64,000 bases of DNA from Gammaproteobacteria bacterium (GTDB lineage: Bacteria > Pseudomonadota > Gammaproteobacteria > Poriferisulfidales > Poriferisulfidaceae): the NCBI GenBank assembly GCA_028819565.1, contig JAPPLD010000020.1:159319-223318 (forward strand). The letters are read 5' to 3'. This document shows positions 47,236-60,148 of the stretch, in pieces; within the stretch, counting starts at the first letter, position 1; the number at the start of each line of letters is the position of its first letter. The notes beneath the pieces were generated by a model, which had not been told where the DNA came from, made no database searches, and saw only the letters and a program-made list of their open reading frames with translations. The position numbers and the translations under genes were made by a program.

Positions 47236-47434
47236 TGCTACAATCCCTAGTATCGCAAGGCTTAACTTGAGGTGTTAGCGTGCTGATTATGCAAGGAAAC
47301 TTGCCTATCGGATACTTCCGGATCAGTCGGCGAACAATGCCTTGCACACGAATGCCGGGCTACAAAGATGTTGTTTTTCAGCAACAACTCGGCTCACAAC
47401 GAATGAGCCGGCACCTTTGGTGACCGGCTTTTTT
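47236..47434 (+). promoter_or_regulatory. Candidate promoter plus transcription attenuator leader of the TonB receptor gene
   Basis: Extended -10 TGCTACAAT (47236-47244); GCAAG-GAAA-CTTGC hairpin; CGGCTCA/TGAGCCG hairpin (47390-47410) mutually exclusive with AGCCGG/CCGGCT-TTTTTT terminator (47406-47434). Confidence 0.55.
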
Positions 47435-47467
47435 ATGTCTTCTGTCTCAGGAGCGAGGGTAGAGATC

Positions 47468-50056
47468 ATGAGACCGACCAAACATTTCCACACGGGCGTT
47501 TCACTTTTTCTCGCCATGGCCTTATGTGGTCCAGTGGTGGCGGAAATCGAAGAAATTACGGTTACGGCGCAGAAGCGCGAGGAAAACGTGCAGAACGTGC
47601 CGATTTCCGTTACGACTTTCTCTGATGATTTCTTTACGAAATCGAACGTTAGCACCCTCCGGGATATGGCGCGCTATGCGCCTAACCTGAGTCTGCCTCA
47701 GTCCAGCACGATCGCCAACCAGCGAATTATCCTGCGTGGCGTGGGGTCGGTCGGCAACAGTGCGATTGAGCCGACTGTGGCGGTTTTCATTGATGGCGTT
47801 TACTACCCGCGACCGTCTTCGATTGTTGGTAGCATGACCGATTTGGATCAAGCAGAAGTGCTGCGCGGACCGCAGGGCACCCTGTTCGGGCGCAACGCCT
47901 CGATGGGCGCGTTGAACATCGTCACCAAGAACCCGACGAATGAACACGAAGGACGGATCACCTTCGGCTATGGCGACTACGATGAGAAGCGCATTTCCGG
48001 TTACATCAACAGCGCGATCTCCGAGAAGGCTTCTGCCCGCCTTTCGTTCCAAGCCTCGGACCGTGATGGCTATGGCGAGAACACCTACACCGACCAGGGC
48101 AGCCGAAGCACTGTGGGCGACTGGAACGATGTCACCGTGCGAGGAAAACTACTTTTCACTCCGAACGACAATACTGATGTCCTCCTGACGGCGGATTTCT
48201 CCCGGGTCAGGAACGAGGGTGCTGTCACTGAATTTGTCGGTGATACGGCACCGGGGCAAAGTCTTTTAGGACTTATCCAAATCCTTCCTACTGGAGAGTT
48301 GCCGGAGGCTAGCGATGTCTACGACCACAAACTCCACCAGATGCACCGCGATGATGCCGACAATGAGCAGTGGGGTCTGAGCAGTGATATCACATGGGCA
48401 GTAGGCGGTCACACGATTCGTTCGATAACAGCTTACCGAGACTGGGAGAACGATAGTTTGGACCAGTCGGTTATTCGCTTACCTGCGGACCTGGTGCCGA
48501 CGGATCAGTTCTATGAAGCGGAAACCTTCTCGCAGGAACTGCAGATTCTTTCTCCTGAGGGCGAAAATGTTGAATACGTGTTCGGCCTGTACTATTACGA
48601 CGAGGAATATTCCCTGGACAACTATTCCCGCGTTGGGAAGGACTTCTGCGGGATGGTGAGGACTTTGACGGGCGCTTCATCCGCCGTGTTCCTCACTCGC
48701 CTACTGACAGCGGCAAGAGTTATAGATCAATCTCAAGGTAGCTCCTTAGCAACTGCGATAGAAGAGGCTTTGCCTGATCAACAAACAGCAGGCTCGAGTC
48801 CGTATTCGGTTTGCATGGCTGGTGGAGAGGATATGTTCTCGTCGGAGTTTACCCAAGATGTTAGCAACTATGCTGCCTATGGGCACCTGACCTACCACCT
48901 GACGCCGCAATGGCGCCTTGCTGCGGGGGCGCGTTACACCCGGAGCGAAAAGGACGGGGAATTCGAAAGCGTTGTCTACAATCAACTGGCTGCTCCGGCC
49001 TCGGCGACTAATCCGTTTGGCTTGGACTTGCGTGATCCTGAGCCCTTGAAAAGCCTGACTCACGATGAAGAGAAAGTCACTTGGTTGACCAACCTCAGCT
49101 ATTTTCTTGATGACGACACCATGCTGTTCGCGAATTTCTCTACTGGATTCAAATCAGGAGGTTTCAGCCCCGATGGTTTCAACAGCCAGGTTGCAGAAGC
49201 TGGGAGAACCCGGAAATTTGACACTGAAACCACCAAGAATTATGAACTCGGCATCAAAAGTACCTTGTGGGACGGCCGATTGATCGCCAATGCGACGCTC
49301 TACCGCACCAAGATCAGCGACTTCCAGGAACGTCAATTCGATGGACTGAACCTCGTCGTGCACAATTCTGGCGATCTGACGCAGCAGGGAGTCGAGTTGG
49401 ACGCGCGGTTCCAGCCGCGGGAAGAGTTCCACGCGACACTGGGCGTGAGTTATCTGGATTCGGAATTTGATTCTTTCCCTGCCGCCACCGCACTCCCGGG
49501 CAGGATTGCCGCAGTTTCGGGGCACAACAGCTATGTCGGGTTTTGCCGTGGAGTCGTGGGCCCGTTGTTCCAGGCGGATTCAACCAATCAGGGATTCGGG
49601 CAGATTCTCCAAGGGTGCCATAGAATGGCGATTCCCACTCAGGACCTGAAAGGTGAACGCAACCATTTTTCCCCGAAATGGCAGGTGGCGTTGTCCGCCG
49701 AATGGTCCGATTCCATGCCTGACGCCTCTCTGGACTGGTTCATCCGGGGCGAGTTCCAGTTCGTCGACGACCAGAATGTGGGCGCTGATACCAATCAGGA
49801 CCCGGACACCATGCAAAGCAGTTACAGCCTTTTTAATGGAGGGGCCGGCGTGCGTGGCTCGAACGGTGACTGGGAGGTATCACTATTCGTCAAGAACATC
49901 TTCGACGAGGATTACTGCCAGACCAAATATGCCCAGCCACTGCTGGGTTCATTGGGACTGGCGGACACGACGGGCGCAGAGGGATTCCGTGGCGCGAAGC
50001 GTTGTCCACTTGGCGAGCCGCGCACTTGGAGCCTGGTTGGCAGTTTCCTGTTCTGA
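47468..50056 (+). CDS. TonB-dependent receptor
   Basis: Signal peptide, EIEEITVTAQKREENVQNVPISVTTF, plug GVYYPRPSSIVGSMTDLDQAEVLRGPQGTLFGRNASMGALNIVTKNP, C-terminal aromatic. Confidence 0.95.
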   Translation: MRPTKHFHTGVSLFLAMALCGPVVAEIEEITVTAQKREENVQNVPISVTTFSDDFFTKSNVSTLRDMARYAPNLSLPQSSTIANQRIILRGVGSVGNSAIEPTVAVFIDGVYYPRPSSIVGSMTDLDQAEVLRGPQGTLFGRNASMGALNIVTKNPTNEHEGRITFGYGDYDEKRISGYINSAISEKASARLSFQASDRDGYGENTYTDQGSRSTVGDWNDVTVRGKLLFTPNDNTDVLLTADFSRVRNEGAVTEFVGDTAPGQSLLGLIQILPTGELPEASDVYDHKLHQMHRDDADNEQWGLSSDITWAVGGHTIRSITAYRDWENDSLDQSVIRLPADLVPTDQFYEAETFSQELQILSPEGENVEYVFGLYYYDEEYSLDNYSRVGKDFCGMVRTLTGASSAVFLTRLLTAARVIDQSQGSSLATAIEEALPDQQTAGSSPYSVCMAGGEDMFSSEFTQDVSNYAAYGHLTYHLTPQWRLAAGARYTRSEKDGEFESVVYNQLAAPASATNPFGLDLRDPEPLKSLTHDEEKVTWLTNLSYFLDDDTMLFANFSTGFKSGGFSPDGFNSQVAEAGRTRKFDTETTKNYELGIKSTLWDGRLIANATLYRTKISDFQERQFDGLNLVVHNSGDLTQQGVELDARFQPREEFHATLGVSYLDSEFDSFPAATALPGRIAAVSGHNSYVGFCRGVVGPLFQADSTNQGFGQILQGCHRMAIPTQDLKGERNHFSPKWQVALSAEWSDSMPDASLDWFIRGEFQFVDDQNVGADTNQDPDTMQSSYSLFNGGAGVRGSNGDWEVSLFVKNIFDEDYCQTKYAQPLLGSLGLADTTGAEGFRGAKRCPLGEPRTWSLVGSFLF

Positions 50057-50123: not shown

Positions 50124-52154
50124 TCAGTTCAATTTTCTACCGTGATACGCGGTTTCAGTGGCCTCGAAAGGATACCGGTGCCGTATCACCCGAAATCCGA
50201 ATTTCTTATCGGGACTCATCTTGGGTAGCGGGTTGATTCCGAGCTTGTAGTTCTTCGGGTACAGTTCCAGTTCAAGGTGATGAGCCATCAGCATCAGGTT
50301 CATGGCCAATTGCAACTCGCTCCAGCGTGCGCCCCCGCAAGTGTGCGTTCCGATGCCGAACGGTGCGTAAGCTCCTGGTACCTGCTTGTGTTCGCTTCGG
50401 GGTGGTGCGAAGCGGTCGATGTCAAAATTCAGGGGATCCTTGAAGAATCTCTCGTCAAAATGGGAGGCGGTAAACGCGACCATGAGTGTGGAGTTGGGAG
50501 GGATCTTGTAGCCTTCGACCTCGAAACCGTTCATCACGGTTCGCAGGTGCATGGGAATCACGGGATGTAGCCGCAGCGTTTCCATGATGAACCGATGAGT
50601 CACGTCGATTGCAGACACGTCGAGGTCGTCACCAGCCGGGTCTCCGTCGGCAAAGAGCGCGTCTGCTTCAGCGGCGATCCGTTCATGTACGTCTGGGTTT
50701 GTAAGCATCTCATAGATGGCGAAGGACATTTCACTTCCCAAGTAATGTCCGGCGATGATCGGCGCGATGAACGCAAAACCGAGATCGGTTTCAGGCAGGA
50801 ATTGCGGGTCGGAGTAGTGCAGGTCCATCAGGTCGTCGACGAGGTCTCGACGCTTGCCGGCTCGCTGGGCTGAAGTGTGTGAAGCGTGAATCTGAGCATA
50901 AAGATCCAGCACGCGTCCGAGGGATCGCTTCATCGCAGGTGTGCGCAGCATGAAACGGGGCACGAGCTTGTGCACTGTGACCAGAAGTGCTCGGTACTCG
51001 TACTTGATGAGATCATCGAGGATGTCGGCAGGTGCAATGCTCACGCTGAGATTGGCGACTTGTTCGCCGATCATCCGCTGACATGCCATCTCGGTACGGA
51101 TGGTGTTTCCGATTCCCCACCAATCGAAGTGTCCCCTGGCCATGGCCAGCAGTTCATCCAACCGATCCTCAACCACTGCGCGGGAATTGCCTGCGCGCAC
51201 CATCTTGCGCATGCGGAAGTGATCGGCACCATCCATACTGGCGATAGATCGCCCGGTCCCCCACGTATGTTGAAAGTCCGCGATAAAGTCCTGCGAACGG
51301 ACATGGAGCCGACCTTTTTGGCTGAACCAGTGGTTCAGTTCTGCGCTGGCGATAACAATCATGTCTCGGCCACCAGTCTTGAGTCTAAATACCGGTCCAT
51401 GCTTTTGGGCTTGTTCAGCAAAGAATTTGGGTAGGTCTCTCGAACGGAATGTCTTCGAGAAGATCATGTCCTTCAGGCCAATGACCGGCATGGCTCGGTG
51501 CCGTACCGTCCGCATGCTTTCGGGGGGGCGATAGGAACTTTGTACCGCAGCCCCGATGTTCTGTCCGATCAGGTCCATCTTGCTGAGGAGTTCGATCCGC
51601 TCCTCGGCGAGTTCGTATTCTTCGGGCTCAAGCATCGCGTGAATTCCGCCGCAGCTCTGCATGAGGCCGATGATGGCGATGTCGCGCGGATCCGGGATCT
51701 CGTCGTCCAGTAGCGTCCGCATGATTCGGCTCTTGATTTCCTCTCCGGTCCGGCCGTCCACCAAGGGATAGCGGCCCGAGCGTGCAACCTTGCTCGAAAG
51801 ATTCCAGAACCCGCCTTCATCTGCATCTAGGATGCCTATCTTGGACAGGCGGTCGAGCGCTTCCGTATTGATCGCATCCGCGTTCCGCGCAATGCGCTCG
51901 ACCCAGAATTGTGGAGTGTGTGCCTCGGTTTCCTTGGTGATTTCTGCCAGCGTTGGATCCAGCAAGTTGTCACCGATGGGAGTCGAATCAATCAGAGTGA
52001 GTGTTTCCACGTCAGTGTCGATTCGGTTCTCCAGCGCGAGGTCCATTAGGACGCCTCCCGCGAGCACGCAGGACATCTTCCATTCCGGGATGGGGATGAA
52101 ATAGCCCGTCTTCTCGTCGAGCAGCATCAGGAGAATTTCTTCGGCGAATCTCAC
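50124..52154 (-). CDS. GPP34 (GOLPH3-like) - cytochrome P450 fusion protein
   Basis: N-terminus MRFAEEILLMLLDEKTGYF...CVLAGGVLMDLALENRI...PIGDNLLDPTLAEI (GPP34); C-terminal P450 with METLRLHP (ExxR) and FGIGTHTCGG (heme Cys). Confidence 0.88.
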   Translation of the reverse strand: MRFAEEILLMLLDEKTGYFIPIPEWKMSCVLAGGVLMDLALENRIDTDVETLTLIDSTPIGDNLLDPTLAEITKETEAHTPQFWVERIARNADAINTEALDRLSKIGILDADEGGFWNLSSKVARSGRYPLVDGRTGEEIKSRIMRTLLDDEIPDPRDIAIIGLMQSCGGIHAMLEPEEYELAEERIELLSKMDLIGQNIGAAVQSSYRPPESMRTVRHRAMPVIGLKDMIFSKTFRSRDLPKFFAEQAQKHGPVFRLKTGGRDMIVIASAELNHWFSQKGRLHVRSQDFIADFQHTWGTGRSIASMDGADHFRMRKMVRAGNSRAVVEDRLDELLAMARGHFDWWGIGNTIRTEMACQRMIGEQVANLSVSIAPADILDDLIKYEYRALLVTVHKLVPRFMLRTPAMKRSLGRVLDLYAQIHASHTSAQRAGKRRDLVDDLMDLHYSDPQFLPETDLGFAFIAPIIAGHYLGSEMSFAIYEMLTNPDVHERIAAEADALFADGDPAGDDLDVSAIDVTHRFIMETLRLHPVIPMHLRTVMNGFEVEGYKIPPNSTLMVAFTASHFDERFFKDPLNFDIDRFAPPRSEHKQVPGAYAPFGIGTHTCGGARWSELQLAMNLMLMAHHLELELYPKNYKLGINPLPKMSPDKKFGFRVIRHRYPFEATETAYHGRKLN

Positions 52155-52244: not shown

Positions 52245-53334
52245 TTAGTGTTGGTCGCAATCCTCCATGTCCGGGTAGAACTGTGCGCAGTAGCGCCGGT
52301 ATTTTCCGATTTCACCGTCAGACTGGCATAACCGAGGGCGAGAGCGATACCGTTTTCACCCCATATTGTAATGTCTTGCAAGGACATCACGCTTTTGCGA
52401 AGTCAAGACAATTTGATTCATAATCTTGGCTCGCCACTCTGGCGGAAGAAACCGCAAACCGGCGAAAAATCGCTTCGGTTTGTGCAGATTCCGGACCTGC
52501 CCGGCGGGCACCATTTCGATGAGTTCGCTGTCGACGGGCGTGGCGAGCACCCACAAACGCGCATCCATGCCGATGAAATGCTCACGGATATCTACGTATG
52601 AATAGCCAAAGCCATACACGTGCGTGATTGCGGAAACGTCGTAAATACTCTTGATTTCAATGATATTTCGGGTGCGTTTGAAGTCGAAACAACTCTTGAG
52701 ATAAGGCCCGTCTGTGGAAACCGAACCGACCGGGTGCACGCTGTCATAGCCGTGGACATACCGCAAATGCGCGATGTCCACGGAATTTTCACTGGTTTCC
52801 TGAGGATGGCTGGGAGATCGCATAATTCGATATCTGATTTTACTCCAATCCGCGCCCATCAGAGGACCCTCGGGAAGATCCCATTGCGGCGACCGTCCGC
52901 CGTTTCCCCATCAGGCAAAGATCAAGTCATCCATCTCCCGTGTCTCGAATACCCTGAGTTGAGTGGCTTTCGGAGGAGGAGTGTAGGGTGTGGCCACGCA
53001 TCTGCCGGTTGCATCGTATTCGTAGCCGTGAAACGGGCAGACGAGACAGCCGTCGCGAATTTTGCCTCCAGCGTCAGGGCCCAATTCGGAGCCTGGGTGC
53101 GGGCAGGCCGATTCGGCAACGCAGATGCGCCCCTTACCGTCGCACCAGACCACGATCTTTTCACCTATCCAAATCTTTTGGATCAGTTGTTCTTTTTTGG
53201 ATGGCCCGACGGCTGCCGATGAAGTACCAACCCTCGGGGAAGGGCGGAAGCGAGGGGATGTCGTAGAGTTTGGCCGGGCTTGTTCGCATCACCTTGTAGA
53301 ATCTCGTGGCGAAAGGGGAGGCATAGGCGGACAT
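52245..53334 (-). pseudogene. Rieske [2Fe-2S] oxygenase, degraded
   Basis: Rieske motifs CPHPG...CLVCPFHGYEYD and catalytic-like DIAHLRYVHGYDSVHPVG; broken by a frameshift at an A6 run (53193-53198), an in-frame TGA (52911-52913) and indels near 52360-52385. Confidence 0.85.
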
Positions 53335-53421
53335 GTACTAGACATACTACTATCACAATAGCAGATTTGACGATTCCCAGAAACCAGATAATGAATAGTA
53401 AGGCCGCTTCGTTCGGACAGC

Positions 53422-53853
53422 GTGCCCACTCTATTTCTCGAAACCGAGCGCGTGTATCCGGCCATCCCATGGCAGATTCGGACCGTAATGAACGGTTGCA
53501 CCATTGCTGAGCACGAACTCCCGAGCCCGACCCGGATATTGAGTTGCCACACTGCCACGCACTATATGGGCGACCTGTTCATGGATCCGCTGAGATTCGA
53601 CATCGACCGCTACCTGCCCGAGCGTCAGGAGCATCTGACTCCAAGTGCCTACGTTCCCTATGGCTTGGGGGCGCATACCTGTCTGGGGCATAACTGGGTC
53701 AATTTTCAAATGGCAGTCAATCTGCCGTTTATCGCCCATCATGTGAAGTTGGAATTGTAGCCTGACGGCTATCAAATGGGAATCAACCCATTTCCTACAG
53801 CGGCACCGAATAAGAAGATGAAGTTTCGGATTGCCGAAATCAACGCTCTGTAA
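53422..53853 (+). pseudogene. Cytochrome P450 C-terminal remnant
   Basis: FLETERVYPAIPWQIRTVMNG, PYGLGAHTCLGHNW; internal TAG at 53758-53760, after which homology continues (PDGYQMGINPFPTAAPNKKMKFRIAEINAL). Confidence 0.88.
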
Positions 53854-53937
53854 ATTCACGACAGGAAACCTTCCAGGTCGTAGGATCTGCAGGTTTGTGC
53901 AAATATAATGGACAGCAATCTCCCCGGAGTAGCAGCA

Positions 53938-55589
53938 TGCCCCTGTTGCCAATTACGATGCGAGTTTACCAGTTGTCCATTAGTCAGACATTGACTAGTC
54001 GGAACAACTTAAAGCCACGCCAGCGGCTGACTGATCCCAAGGCGACCACTGTAAAGTCGTACAAATTCCGATGGCGTGCCGCATCGACGGCGGTATTCTT
54101 GAGCCTGATCGGTGGCTTCACTGTCGCTTGCTCGGCAGCGTTAGTTCCTCCTGTTTCCGAACCGGTGTCGCAGTTGCCCGAAGAATTCTCAGGCAGCACC
54201 GTGCTTGGCGCATATGCCCCATCGGAATGGTGGAGTGCATTCAATGATCCTACCTTGAATCGGATTATCGAAGCCGTTCTTGCTTCGAATTTTGATCTGG
54301 CAGAGGCAGTGGCCCGGGTCGATCAGGCGAGAGCAAGGGAGCGAATTGCGGATTCCATTAGATCTCCGCAAGTTCAGCCGGTTGGCACAGCCGAAGATAC
54401 GAACGCGCCGACCAATGCGGGAATTGGTGCGCAAGTGGACGAGTTGGATCAAGATTTTAGGCTACAGCTACCTGAACGGATCAGTTTGACTACTTACACT
54501 TTCAGCATCGACTTCTCCTACGAGGTCGATTTCTGGGACCGTAACCTCAATAAGTCACGTGTTGCCGGAGCCGAGCTTCTGGCTTCGGAGTGGGATTACC
54601 GTGCTGCTCGCATCGGAGTTGTAGCTGAGACCGTTCGCACGTACCTGGAAATCACCCATCTGCGGCGCCAATGGGAGTTATCGGAAGAAATCGTAGAGAT
54701 TTTCCGGGAACGCGAAAAACTAACCTCGTTCCGGTACAACAGCGGGGTGGACAGTGCCCGTGATCTCTACCGGGTGCGTCGAAGCCTGTGGGATGCGGAG
54801 ACCGAATTGCCGGCAATTGAAGGACGGTTGGCTGATGCTGAGGCACGCTTTTGGGTGTTGCTAGGGGGATTCCGCGAAGGCTTGGCGGATATGCTGCCTG
54901 ATACGCTGCCGTCATTGGGGGCACTTGAACCCGTCCCGGCAGGAATCCCGGCGGATCTTTTGACGCAACGCCCCGACGTGGGTGCAGCGAGGCAGAGAAT
55001 GGAAGCAGCCCGCTACTTGGTTGGCGTGCGGCGGGCGGAATTGCGCCCATCCTTGTCGCTGGGCGGCACGATCGGATTGCAGAACTCGGATTTCGAGAAC
55101 TGGTTACACCCCGACCAGTGGTTCCGGAACCTGACCGTGAATCTGCTGGGACCGGTGTTCCAAGGGTCCCGCCTGCAGCAAAACGTGACGCTGGCCGAAA
55201 AGCAATGGAACGAGGCCGTTGCCGCGTATGGGCGTACCGTCGTGACCGCGGTGAATGAAGTCGAGGCTGCCTTGTCTGGATGGGGAACCAGCCATCGCTT
55301 CTATACCTTGCGGAAATCTTTCGCCGAAGAGGCGCGGGCGGAAGCAGAGTACCAGGAACGGCGCTATCAATCCGGGGTGGCGGACTACGAAGACTATTTG
55401 ACCGCCTCTCAGACCCTCGTCAGTGCAAATTCAGCATTGGCGGCGGCAGAACGCGACCTGGGCTATGCGCGCTTGGCATTGCACCGCGCCTTGGGGGGAA
55501 CGTGGGTGACTTCCGGCTCGCTCCCGCCTCAAGCGGATGATTCTGCCCAGACGGAGGGTTCGCCGTCTACAGCGACATCCACCGACTGA
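53938..55589 (+). CDS. RND efflux outer membrane lipoprotein (NodT/OprM-like)
   Basis: SEWWSAFNDPTLNRIIEAVLASNFDLAEAVARVDQARA; LTQRPDVGAARQRMEAARYLVGVRRAELRPSLSL; start uncertain. Confidence 0.9.
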
Positions 55590-55649
55590 ATCAGGGTGCT
55601 ACGATGGACGATTGTGCAAAATGTCCCAGATCAAATCTCCGAAATTAGC

Positions 55650-56858
55650 ATGAGCAGACGAGTCGGTCTCCTGGTTGCCGTGGTCATCATTGCCGCCTCC
55701 GTGGCATTGGCGACCTTACTGGTGTCCATGGTGCCCGAGCCTGAACGGCACGAGCCTCCACCCCAGGTTCCATTTGCGCAGACCAGTCGTGTAGTACTTG
55801 GTGATGGCTCCATTCCAGTGCACGGGGCCGGAACGGTGCGGCCCAGCGCGGAAATCGACGTCATTCCGCAAATCAGTGGCAAGGTGATTTGGATCAATCC
55901 AGGCTTTCAGAGTGGCGGCCGGATCGAAGCCGGCCAGACAATCTTCCGGATCGAAGAAGAAGACTACCTGTATCGCGTACGCGAGGCAGAAGCGGATCTT
56001 GAGGCCAAGCGTGTGGAACTCCTAGAGGCTCGGGAAAAAGCGGAAATTGCTCGCACCGAATACGAACAATTCTCTGGTCGGCGTTCCAATGGAAAGTTTT
56101 CAGCACGTCAGGCACACCCCTTGACTCTGCGGGAGCCCCAGTTGAAAGCGGCCGAGGCTGCGCTTGATCGCGAGGAAGCCCGGGTTGCCGAAGCCAAGTT
56201 GGCGCTGTCCCGTACTCGGATTCAGGCACCTTTTGACGGTTATGTGCGTGACGAATCGATAGATTTGGGGCAATTCGTGACCGCTGGACAGGCGGTCGGC
56301 CGCATATTCGCCACGGATGCCGTCGAAGTGGTGGTGCCACTGCCCGACACCAGCGCGGTCTTGATTCCCGGACTATGGGAACTTCAGGCTGGAGATGCAG
56401 AGCAACAGGTGCCTGCGCGCGTGACCGCCCGGTATGGTGATGGCAACCACGCTTGGGAAGGCTATGTGGATCGGGCTGAAGTGTCGCTGGATAAACAAAC
56501 GCGAACCATCGACGTGGTCGTGCGCGTACCGGATCCTTTTTCTAGGGAAATTTCATCGAACGGGGTTGGTGCAACCCCGCCGTTGCTGGTCGGCAAATTT
56601 GTTGAAGTGGCGATTGAGGGTCTCGTTTCAGAGGCGTATTATCGAGTTCCCCGGGCGGCATTACAGCCGGGCAATGAGATCTGGGTGGTTCGCGGCAACA
56701 GTGCCGTGCATATTGTCCCGGTGCGCGTTTTGCAGCGTATCAACGATGAAGCCTATGTCGCCGGGCCTCTTGAAAATGGGCAGCAGGTGGTCACCGGTGG
56801 CATTCCGTTCGCCACGGAAGGTATGGCGGTGCAGACCGGGACTGACGCGACGCAATAA
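55650..56858 (+). CDS. RND efflux periplasmic adaptor (MFP/HlyD)
   Basis: GAGTVRPSAEIDVIPQISGKVIWINPGFQSGGRIEAGQTIFRIEEEDY; RIQAPFDGYVRDESIDLGQFV. Confidence 0.92.
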   Translation: MSRRVGLLVAVVIIAASVALATLLVSMVPEPERHEPPPQVPFAQTSRVVLGDGSIPVHGAGTVRPSAEIDVIPQISGKVIWINPGFQSGGRIEAGQTIFRIEEEDYLYRVREAEADLEAKRVELLEAREKAEIARTEYEQFSGRRSNGKFSARQAHPLTLREPQLKAAEAALDREEARVAEAKLALSRTRIQAPFDGYVRDESIDLGQFVTAGQAVGRIFATDAVEVVVPLPDTSAVLIPGLWELQAGDAEQQVPARVTARYGDGNHAWEGYVDRAEVSLDKQTRTIDVVVRVPDPFSREISSNGVGATPPLLVGKFVEVAIEGLVSEAYYRVPRAALQPGNEIWVVRGNSAVHIVPVRVLQRINDEAYVAGPLENGQQVVTGGIPFATEGMAVQTGTDATQ

Positions 56859-56926: not shown

Positions 56927-59900
56927 CTAGCTTGCGGCTTGGGTCTGCATGGAAGTGTCGGATGCGCCGGACCTTCCGCGTCGGGAAATCACTCGCAAAT
57001 GAATCGTGGATAGTGCGGGAATCACGAACATCAGCATGCCCGTGGTAATCATGATGCCGAAACCCAGCGACGCGGCAAAGGGAATCAGGAATTGCGCTTG
57101 GATCGCGCGCTCGAGAATCAAAGGCATGAAACCGAGGAAAGTGGTGACGGAAGTGAGGAAGATTGGCCGAAAACGTCCCTTTGCGCCCTCGATGATGGCA
57201 GTTCGTGCCGAGTCGCCTTCGCGGAGCCGCCGGTCAATGAAGTCCATCATGACCAGAGAGTCGTTCACGACTACGCCGCTGAGGCCGAAAATCCCCATGA
57301 AGGACACTGCGCCCATGGCGATCCCCAGGATCCAGTGACCCATGATTGCACCGACGATCCCAAGTGGAATGACGGCCATGATGATGAACGGCTTGGTGTA
57401 GGAGCGAAGGGGGATGGCCAGCAAGACAAAAATCATGAACAGCGCAATCGCGAAGCCGCGGTAAAGCGAATCCAGGGATTCGATTTGCTGTTGTTGCTCG
57501 CCTCCGAACGTGTACGTCAGGCCGGGATCCGCGGCGACCAGCTTCGCCAGGATCGACTCGTCCAGGATACGGTTGGCCTCATTGCCGGAAATTACGGCAT
57601 CGTCGACATCCGCAGTGACCGTCACAACCCGTTGCCCGTCCTTGCGCCGGACCGTCGGCGGCGATGTGCCCGAATTCAGTCGAGTGACCTGACTGAGCGG
57701 GACTTCGGCTCCAGCCGGGGTTCGAATCAGATAACTTTCGATGTCGGTGATGGCGTTGCGCTCGTCCTCGGGCAGGCGTACGTAAACTCGGACTTCTTCC
57801 CGGCCTCGCTGCACGCGCAAGGCTTCCGCGCCAAAGAAGGCAGCACGCGCTTGTTGTGCCATCCCCTCAAGCGTCAGCCCGAGCGTCCGCGCTTCGGGGC
57901 GGAGTTCGAGCTGGATTTCCCGGATGCCCGGCGTATGGTCGGAACGCACGTCGTAGACGCCACCGATTCCACGCAAGCCATTGACGACCGAGTCCGCGAT
58001 TTCCCCGATCCGTTCCGGGTCCGGATGAGACAGCACGGCTTCAACGGGATTGCCAAGGTCGATAATTTCGCCGCTGAAAACGATGCCACGCACGTAGGGG
58101 AGGGTGCCCACCTCGTTGCGCCATGCCTGTACGACCTCTCCGGTGGAAATCTGCCGTTCCTGTGCGCTCAGCAGTTTGAACTCGACCGCGGCAATATTGG
58201 CTTCCGGTCTCAGTGAGAGTTTGGGTTCAAGCCCTCCGCCTTCGACCCGCGGGCCCTGGCCCACGGTCACCGTCGATCCGGACAGCAGGGGGGGCGCCCC
58301 CTCGGGGCGATTACGTGAAAGCCGTTCGATGACTCGCAGTCCAGCCGCTTCCAGTTCTGTCGCCACTTCATAGGTTCGCTGCGCTGTCGTTCCGTCAGGC
58401 ATCTCAAGGGTGGCGGTCACGAAATCGCCTTCCACCGCGTCCGCGAAAGTCGTCGCAACGATACCGGCCGGCAGCAGGGAGATGCTGAGAATGAGTGTTC
58501 CGATGGCGCCCGCGAGCGTGATGGCGGGTTGGTCTGTCGCGAATCGCAGCCCGCGGTCCAAGGGGCCCTCGACGAATTTGTGCAGCAGGTGATCCACATG
58601 GCGTTGAGTTCGCGAGAAGAACCGGTCGACCGCGCCGGTCGGCGTCCACTCGGGTCCATGCAGGCGAGACAAGTGATTCGGAAGGATCAGCAGCGATTCG
58701 GTCAGCGAGATCAGTAGCATGGCGATGAGGATGACCGGCAATGCGCCCCAGATTTCACCAATGCCTCCAGGGATGAAGAGCAAGGGAATGAAGGCGGCAA
58801 CCGAAGTGAGGACCGCGAACGTCAGTGGAACCTTGATGCGTCGCGCGCCGCGAATTGCCGCGACCACTCCGGATCGACCCTTCTTTCGCTCATGGTGGAT
58901 ATGCTCAGCCACGACGATCGCGTCGTCGACGATGATGCCGATGGCGAGCACGAATGCGAACAGGGAGATGGTGTTGATCGCGATGTCGAGCGCCAACATG
59001 ACCGCCAGGGCGCCGATTCCCGAAATGGCCAGACCGGCCGCGACCCATAAAGCGAGCCGGATTTCGAGAAACAGGGCCAGTGCGATGATGACGAGCAACA
59101 GGCCCAGGAGGCCATTCTTGATGAGAAGATCGACACGCTCCGCATAGGATTGAGATTCGTCATTCCAGATGGTAATGTTCACGCCATCAGGCAGAGAAGG
59201 AGTGATGATGTTCGCGATGTGTTCCTGTACGGTTGTGGCCACGTCCATGACCTTCTCGCCGTCGGCCCGGTAGACCTCGATGTAGGCGGCTGGCTGGCCT
59301 TGATGCCGCACGATCAGGTCGACATCCTCAAAACCGTCATGGACTTCAGCGATGTCGCCGAGACGTACCACCGTGCCGTCATTGCGGCTGATGACGACAA
59401 TTTCTTCGAAGTCCTGCTGGTCATAGCGCTGGCCAAGGGTTCGGACACGCACCTGGGACTCCCGGGTCTCGATGCGGCCGGCGGACAGATCAAGAGAACT
59501 TTGGCGGATCGTGTTCGCGACGTCGCCGAGAGTCAGGCCGAGCGCCCGCAGGCGATGCAGGGGCACTTCGACCGAGATCTCGTAATTGCGCGTGCCGCTG
59601 GTTTCGACCTGGGACACGGCGGAGAGTGCGGCCAGGCTGTCTTCGATCTGGCGGGCCAGTTCTTTCAGCGAATGCTCGGAGACGCCGCCATAGACGACCA
59701 GGCGAATCATGCTCTGCCGGTTGGTCAACTCCCTGATTTCCGGGCGCTCGGCACGGACGGGGAAGGACTGGATGCGATTGACTGCCGATTCGACATCGTC
59801 CAGCACCCGATTGATGTCCGTGCCCGACTTCACCTCAATCTTGACGGACGCCATGCCCGGTGCCGCAATAGATTTGACCGTTTTCACGTCATCCAGTGAT

Positions 59901-60148
59901 TCGACCTGCTCCTCGATCTTGACGACGATCGCTTCCTCGACTTCCTCGGGCGTGGCCCCGGGGTAGGCCATGGAAACCTCGATCTGGTTGAAGGGCAGTG
60001 TAGGCCAGGCCTCCCGCTCAAGGCCGGTCAGCGCCACCAGGCCAGCGAACAGGATGGCGGCCATGAACAGGTTGGCGGCAACGCCGTTGCCGGCCATGTA
60101 GGCGATAGGTCCGCCTGGTTCCGCCGGATGGCCGTTGTCTGGGCTCAT
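56927..60148 (-). CDS. RND efflux inner membrane permease (HAE1-type)
   Basis: 1073 aa; VSMAYPGATPEEVEEAIVVKIEEQVESL; FAFVLAIGIIVDDAIVVAEHIHHERKKG; FGLSGVVVNDSLVMMDFIDRR. Confidence 0.96.
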   Translation of the reverse strand: MSPDNGHPAEPGGPIAYMAGNGVAANLFMAAILFAGLVALTGLEREAWPTLPFNQIEVSMAYPGATPEEVEEAIVVKIEEQVESLDDVKTVKSIAAPGMASVKIEVKSGTDINRVLDDVESAVNRIQSFPVRAERPEIRELTNRQSMIRLVVYGGVSEHSLKELARQIEDSLAALSAVSQVETSGTRNYEISVEVPLHRLRALGLTLGDVANTIRQSSLDLSAGRIETRESQVRVRTLGQRYDQQDFEEIVVISRNDGTVVRLGDIAEVHDGFEDVDLIVRHQGQPAAYIEVYRADGEKVMDVATTVQEHIANIITPSLPDGVNITIWNDESQSYAERVDLLIKNGLLGLLLVIIALALFLEIRLALWVAAGLAISGIGALAVMLALDIAINTISLFAFVLAIGIIVDDAIVVAEHIHHERKKGRSGVVAAIRGARRIKVPLTFAVLTSVAAFIPLLFIPGGIGEIWGALPVILIAMLLISLTESLLILPNHLSRLHGPEWTPTGAVDRFFSRTQRHVDHLLHKFVEGPLDRGLRFATDQPAITLAGAIGTLILSISLLPAGIVATTFADAVEGDFVTATLEMPDGTTAQRTYEVATELEAAGLRVIERLSRNRPEGAPPLLSGSTVTVGQGPRVEGGGLEPKLSLRPEANIAAVEFKLLSAQERQISTGEVVQAWRNEVGTLPYVRGIVFSGEIIDLGNPVEAVLSHPDPERIGEIADSVVNGLRGIGGVYDVRSDHTPGIREIQLELRPEARTLGLTLEGMAQQARAAFFGAEALRVQRGREEVRVYVRLPEDERNAITDIESYLIRTPAGAEVPLSQVTRLNSGTSPPTVRRKDGQRVVTVTADVDDAVISGNEANRILDESILAKLVAADPGLTYTFGGEQQQQIESLDSLYRGFAIALFMIFVLLAIPLRSYTKPFIIMAVIPLGIVGAIMGHWILGIAMGAVSFMGIFGLSGVVVNDSLVMMDFIDRRLREGDSARTAIIEGAKGRFRPIFLTSVTTFLGFMPLILERAIQAQFLIPFAASLGFGIMITTGMLMFVIPALSTIHLRVISRRGRSGASDTSMQTQAAS

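Follow-up and report, generated by a model that had tools for sequence, protein, structure and literature searches.

Cytochrome P450s and GPP34 domains are each of a known kind. In the GPP34 protein GOLPH3, the residues that contact PI4P are W81, R90, R171 and R174 (PMC13408441), also given as R90, R171, N172 and R174 (PMC12494035), and the membrane-inserting β-hairpin comprises residues 190–201 (PMC13408441). With regard to bacterial sterol synthesis in sponges, a sterol cluster is carried by 115 of 537 Ircinia sponge MAGs (PMC9531527), and GPP34 is not mentioned in that paper or in the other sponge-symbiont sterol cluster paper (PMC10070321). In the literature that we searched, no description of a GPP34-P450 architecture was found; papers combining the two terms concern, according to their titles, insect pests, insecticides and Bt toxins.

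We analyzed a 64,000-nucleotide stretch of gammaproteobacterial DNA (the window), which contains a gene encoding a GPP34 domain joined to a P450 domain (Table 1), with a GAGGA motif 9 nt 5' of its GTG start. This architecture had been proposed in an earlier note on the same DNA, and Pfam assigned both domains well above the cut-offs: PF05719 (GPP34) at residues 4–205 with 112.4 bits (cut-off, 29.1; E = 3.9e-32), and PF00067 (P450), as a full domain, with 139 bits (cut-off, 22.8; E = 2.5e-40). The P450 signatures named in that note were also found, i.e., ExxR as E525-T-L-R528 and FGIGTHTCGG with the heme ligand C606, and the Glu and Arg of ExxR and the heme Cys are invariant in the 29 members of the fusion family that were aligned. 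By profile comparison, the GPP34 domain matched GOLPH3 (3kn1, 3.7e-14) as well as Vps74. The AlphaFold check that the note had called for succeeded for one domain: the GPP34 part was modeled confidently and matched the GOLPH3 fold in Foldseek (3kn1 and 9qpq; E values of 3e-8 to 5e-8; TM-scores of 0.64–0.67 by target length), but the P450 part had low confidence both in the full-length protein and as a domain alone, probably because the alignment consisted of only 13 closely related sequences.

Table 1. Features of the window at and around the GPP34-P450 fusion gene
Feature	Coordinates	Strand	Basis
GPP34-P450 fusion gene, group A, 676 aa, GTG start	50124..52154	(-)	ORF, Pfam, intact orthologues
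GPP34/GOLPH3-like domain, residues 1–205	51540..52154	(-)	Pfam; profile match to GOLPH3 and Vps74; Foldseek 3kn1/9qpq
Cytochrome P450 domain, residues 223–660; ExxR E525-R528, heme Cys606	50175..51488	(-)	Pfam, alignment
KshA-like Rieske oxygenase pseudogene, directly upstream	52269..53316	(-)	One frameshift, two in-frame stops; intact in relatives
Group B GPP34-P450 remnant, C-terminal P450 part only	53416..53847	(+)	In-frame TAG; 80% identical to intact L016
NodT-type outer-membrane efflux protein, conserved neighbor in other loci	53895..55589	(+)	Orthologue annotation
RND periplasmic adaptor, conserved neighbor	55596..56858	(+)	Orthologue annotation
RND efflux permease, conserved neighbor, 65–80% identity across loci	56927..60148	(-)	Orthologue annotation
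TonB-dependent receptor, convergent neighbor, conserved in genus	47342..50056	(+)	

Three close relatives, G001, G003 and G004 (the last a single 1.59-Mb contig), carry the window-type fusion in intact form, and the genus mate G002 has a paralogue. A contig scan identified 12 named loci that encode the fusion, with 63–94% identity over nearly the full length. Comparison of the window gene with its relatives gave dN/dS values of 0.06–0.16 for the GPP34 domain and 0.05–0.12 for the P450 domain, so that both domains are under purifying selection. An assembly or annotation artefact was ruled out by the intact orthologues found in independent assemblies, the occurrence in two phyla and dN/dS values far below 1. 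The genome that contains the window (G000; 1.8 Mb in 31 contigs, 96.7% complete) encodes GPP34 in four genes, of which two are P450 fusions; its P450 matches are a CYP51, the two GPP34 fusions and one P450 remnant. The second intact fusion (L004; L039:7211-10381, on G000:C13) belongs to group C and is preceded, at a distance of 66 nt, by a sulfotransferase-like gene, so named by inspection of a P-loop-like motif (FVFSTGRCGST) only. The source bacterium is probably a sponge symbiont; the records of fusion carriers include candidatus Porisulfidus and several MAG series (APA, COS, RHO, SB and jk18) that are probably sponge metagenome bins.

Among 297 sampled genomes of Acidobacteriota, the phylum of G119, 14 encode GPP34 in open frames of about 680–810 aa. 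The P450 domain was confirmed in nine Acidobacteriota genomes (G119, G799, G825, G883, G910, G935, G981, G989 and G1045), by means of 11 regions from eight of them plus G119 itself; in the other five of the 14 genomes, the length of the frame and, in most cases, an adjacent cyclase as well point to the fusion. Among 369 class and 399 phylum genomes sampled around the window, fusions occurred in the window's own genus only. The large-frame GPP34 proteins of other Gammaproteobacteria are MFS transporter fusions (L007 and L020 by Pfam, L062 by eye), in which GPP34 recurs on membrane or lipid-facing proteins; in another protein (L001:931-2124), GPP34 is followed by several apparent hydrophobic (transmembrane) stretches, the C-terminal half being without a Pfam match. 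Among the plasmids covered by a search, GPP34 was found only in distant form, in Streptomyces, Nonomuraea and Chroococcidiopsis. A tree of 29 fusions resolved the well-supported groups A (the window type), B, E, C and D, in which three group B rows were N-terminally trimmed (less than half of the columns filled), and the finer order within group B is not relied on. Acidobacteriota group A sequences nest among those of Gammaproteobacteria, which suggests that the fusion module moved by horizontal transfer; MAG mis-binning is an unlikely source of multi-megabase Acidobacteriota contigs with the fusion. The earlier note would have been undercut by a fusion already common and characterized: the architecture does recur in two phyla, but no characterization was found.

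The neighborhoods of the fusion gene suggest sterol or triterpenoid substrates. In two group D loci (L113 and L121), the TGA of a squalene-hopene cyclase gene (605–617 bits; cut-off, 431) overlaps the ATG of the fusion gene as ATGA; further downstream, the same strand encodes a sulfotransferase homologue. These stretches (L113:4776-9884 and L121:4650-9761) have the appearance of a compact operon for a sulfated oxidized triterpenoid. According to coordinates, cyclase and fusion matches abut in G864, G910 and G997; in G892 and G901 they abut too, but the cyclase matches are split. The group C fusion L115 likewise has a sulfotransferase beside it. Sterol-methyltransferase (SMT) homologues occur near the fusion in six loci (L027, L032, L033, L112, L117 and L118), a squalene synthase gene lies two genes upstream in L025, and a gene for an MMPL protein with weak similarity to sterol-sensing domains lies directly upstream in L026. 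L031 had no related neighbors in the stretch inspected. Coupling of the fusion to sterol and triterpenoid genes was thus found as the ATGA overlap, the SMT homologues and the squalene synthase, together with the co-occurrence of oxidosqualene cyclase (OSC) described below. Other conserved neighbors are a FAD amine-oxidase-like protein and a KshA_C Rieske oxygenase, the latter often directly upstream on the same strand. The identity of RND permeases from Acidobacteriota loci to those from Gammaproteobacteria loci reaches 75%, and a TonB receptor is near the group E fusion of L112 as well. In the window, the region 52269-53847, with its Rieske pseudogene and group B remnant, shows local gene decay beside the intact group A fusion. 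Since the fusion is intact though this Rieske gene is broken, the window fusion does not depend on that Rieske protein.

The same genome contains, on contig C24 (L038:4740-14036), a complete-looking bacterial sterol operon with all genes in one direction: an SdmB-like reductase, an SdmA-like Rieske protein (405 bits to the 4β-methylsterol monooxygenase model, below its cut-off of 600), an ERG4/ERG24 reductase, CYP51 (best PDB match 6mcw, E = 2e-102), squalene epoxidase and OSC fused in one 1176-aa ORF, and SMT. OSC matches above 700 bits, all in frames of 1143–1581 aa, were present in nine of the 12 named fusion carriers; OSC was undetectable in the other three, for which genome completeness is not given. 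At more than 600 bits, OSC was found in 6 of the 369 class-sample genomes, two of them in the window's genus. Outside the genus, OSC occurred in 6 of 9 carriers versus 4 of 367 class genomes (Fisher p = 5e-9), and the excess over the Ircinia frequency of 115/537 gave a binomial p of 0.004, both values being optimistic owing to phylogenetic non-independence. The co-occurrence argument is weakened because OSC-bearing sponge MAGs are common anyway (PMC9531527). Among sampled Acidobacteriota, a true OSC was found only in G943 and G894, of which only G943 has a fusion-size GPP34 protein. With this single Acidobacteriota carrier, and with three of the 12 named carriers lacking a detectable OSC, some members of the family may have substrates other than sterols.

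The fusion family is linked by genomic context to sterol/triterpenoid biosynthesis, and from this context we infer its function, including the type of substrate, the part of GPP34 as a membrane tether and that of the RND pump. Such association of genes cannot by itself name a substrate. We consider, with a probability of about 60%, that the fusion is a sterol/triterpenoid-tailoring P450 whose heme domain is held at the membrane by GPP34, in place of the usual membrane anchor; eukaryotic P450s are anchored by a transmembrane helix. The fusion probably oxidizes sterol- or triterpene-type lipids at the membrane. A cyclase or the sterol pathway would deliver a membrane-soluble polycyclic lipid, and GPP34 would keep the P450 at the cytoplasmic face of the membrane, where the water-insoluble substrate sits, so that the P450 could oxidize the polycyclic scaffold. 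For the window lineage, the substrate would most likely be a sterol or sterol intermediate that the symbiont either synthesizes itself or obtains from its host. In the deeper branches, the fusion may act on products of the adjacent squalene-hopene-type cyclase, the product then being sulfated. The KshA/SdmA-like Rieske protein and sometimes a C24-type methyltransferase may modify the same scaffold, and the RND pump may export the product or protect the cell. A tether to membranes or lipid substrates, as first suggested in the earlier note, is now the best-supported idea, with sterol/triterpenoid substrates suggested by genomic context. The lost PI4P pocket and the acidity of the domain speak against tethering by GPP34, and the broken state of the adjacent Rieske gene in this genome speaks against the reading as a whole.

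How GPP34 would act was approached through its alignment with GOLPH3. The PI4P-contacting residues are not kept in the window protein (W81 corresponds to P23, R90 to A32 and R174 to N96, and R171 falls in a gap), and every orthologue of groups A, B and E that is readable there likewise has Pro and Ala at the W81 and R90 positions. The net charge of the window GPP34 domain is -20, and values of -9 to -22 were obtained in 14 fusion proteins. A counterpart of the hairpin region is present, with W117 invariant in 13 group A proteins, and this would suit membrane insertion without PI4P. Given the lack of conservation in the pocket and the strong acidity of the domain, phosphoinositide binding, at which the earlier note had hinted, is unlikely, and a role as PI4P effector was rejected. 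The acidity also bears on the proposal that GPP34 is not a membrane anchor but a protein-protein adaptor, through which the P450 would attach to a redox partner, to the cyclase or to the RND pump. GOLPH3 binds basic cytosolic tails of membrane enzymes through an acidic face (PMC12494035, PMC13408441), as the very acidic bacterial domain might, but no partner tail was identified. The MFS transporter fusions of GPP34 in other bacteria can be cited for such an adaptor and also, these being membrane proteins, for the membrane-holding role. We regard the adaptor proposal as unlikely.

A second alternative reverses the metabolic direction: the P450 would be a detoxifying or catabolic oxygenase for host or environmental steroids and other hydrophobic compounds, with the RND pump conferring resistance, and would not be biosynthetic. 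The KshA-type Rieske gene, the multidrug-type RND pump and the TonB receptor that adjoin the fusion could all serve such a process, and KshA is a steroid-degradation enzyme (PMC4064121). However, in the deep branch, the start of the fusion gene lies within the end of a squalene-hopene cyclase gene and a sulfotransferase homologue comes next, other neighbors (SMT homologues, squalene synthase) are anabolic, and no ring-degradation genes were noticed among the annotated neighbors. Catabolism is thus quite unlikely, and a tailoring role in biosynthesis is preferred.

The chemistry of the P450 part was considered with reference to CYP51. The closest solved P450s were sterol 14-demethylases, with Methylococcus capsulatus CYP51 first (1.2e-23 with the single sequence, 3.9e-32 with the profile). 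CYP51 identity was ruled out: the genome has a CYP51 of its own, encoded by another gene, to which the window protein is about 25% identical, and the fusion forms a clade apart from it. As the earlier note had stated, the window I-helix (AGHYLGSE) lacks the acid-Thr pair, L472 occupying the catalytic Thr position, but this is untrue of the family; the pair is common among P450s and not a strict requirement for being one. The motif is AGHYL or AGHYT in group A, whereas MHTTAS, LHTAAS, LHTGAF and canonical LDTTAS occur in other groups, with HT or DT in groups C and D; groups B (YL) and E (YV) have AS[IL]YLGS and ASVYVGD. Relative to the HT/DT groups, the window helix and those of groups B and E show a one-residue gap in the groove. 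M. capsulatus CYP51 (AGHHTSS) keeps HT and has no acid at that position. The presence of HT in CYP51 as well makes the loss of the acid-Thr pair from the window protein look like a derived, stepwise and lineage-specific change. The loss of Thr could signal substrate-assisted or peroxide chemistry, but we put little weight on it because near orthologues retain Thr. Together with the gap, it might be taken to mean that the P450 is no longer a monooxygenase but a peroxygenase, an isomerase, a desaturase or a non-catalytic protein; this appears very unlikely, in that the ExxR residues and the heme Cys are invariant, the Thr position tolerates both residues among near orthologues and CYP51 itself does without the acid here. 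Least credible of all, indeed barely so, is the view of GPP34 as a lipid sensor of the phosphoinositide type, which would guide the enzyme to membranes of the host or to ones that bear phosphoinositides; for this view, GPP34 family membership and the GOLPH3 fold speak, against the replaced pocket residues and the negative charge described above.

More tentatively, and as a possibility that we would not expect to hold in full, GPP34-P450s may be undescribed membrane-docked sterol/triterpenoid oxidases of Gammaproteobacteria and Acidobacteriota, largely sponge symbionts, that help to make the unusual sterols, oxidized and sulfated, that are attributed to sponges, with GPP34 as a phosphoinositide-independent membrane or triterpenoid docking module and thus a function of the GOLPH3 fold in bacteria. 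Two questions could be tested on a single gene: the role of GPP34 domains in bacteria, which have no Golgi, and the identity of the bacterial enzymes that modify sterols and triterpenoids within sponge holobionts. The source of unusual sponge sterols is debated because early animals are traced by means of sterane fossils. For heterologous expression, the genes for cyclase, P450 and sulfotransferase would make up a compact system.

The window protein resembles several known systems in part. It shares with GOLPH3/Vps74 the GPP34 domain, as judged by Pfam, profile and fold, but its domain is bacterial, fused to a P450, strongly acidic, without the PI4P residues and without a vesicle-coat context. 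M. capsulatus CYP51 (PDB 6mi0/6mcw) is the best match among solved P450s, has an AGHxxxS-type I-helix and has its counterpart in the sterol operon of the window's genome, whereas the window protein adds an N-terminal GPP34 domain and has Leu at the Thr position. The CYP51-ferredoxin fusion of Methylococcus capsulatus is likewise a bacterial sterol P450 with an additional fused domain; its partner, however, is a redox domain, in contrast to the N-terminal GPP34 here. As in the sponge-symbiont sterol clusters (PMC10070321, PMC9531527), the core of OSC, CYP51, ERG24, SMT and SdmA/SdmB is present in the window's genome, but the fusion maps elsewhere, in the company of a Rieske gene and of genes for an RND pump.
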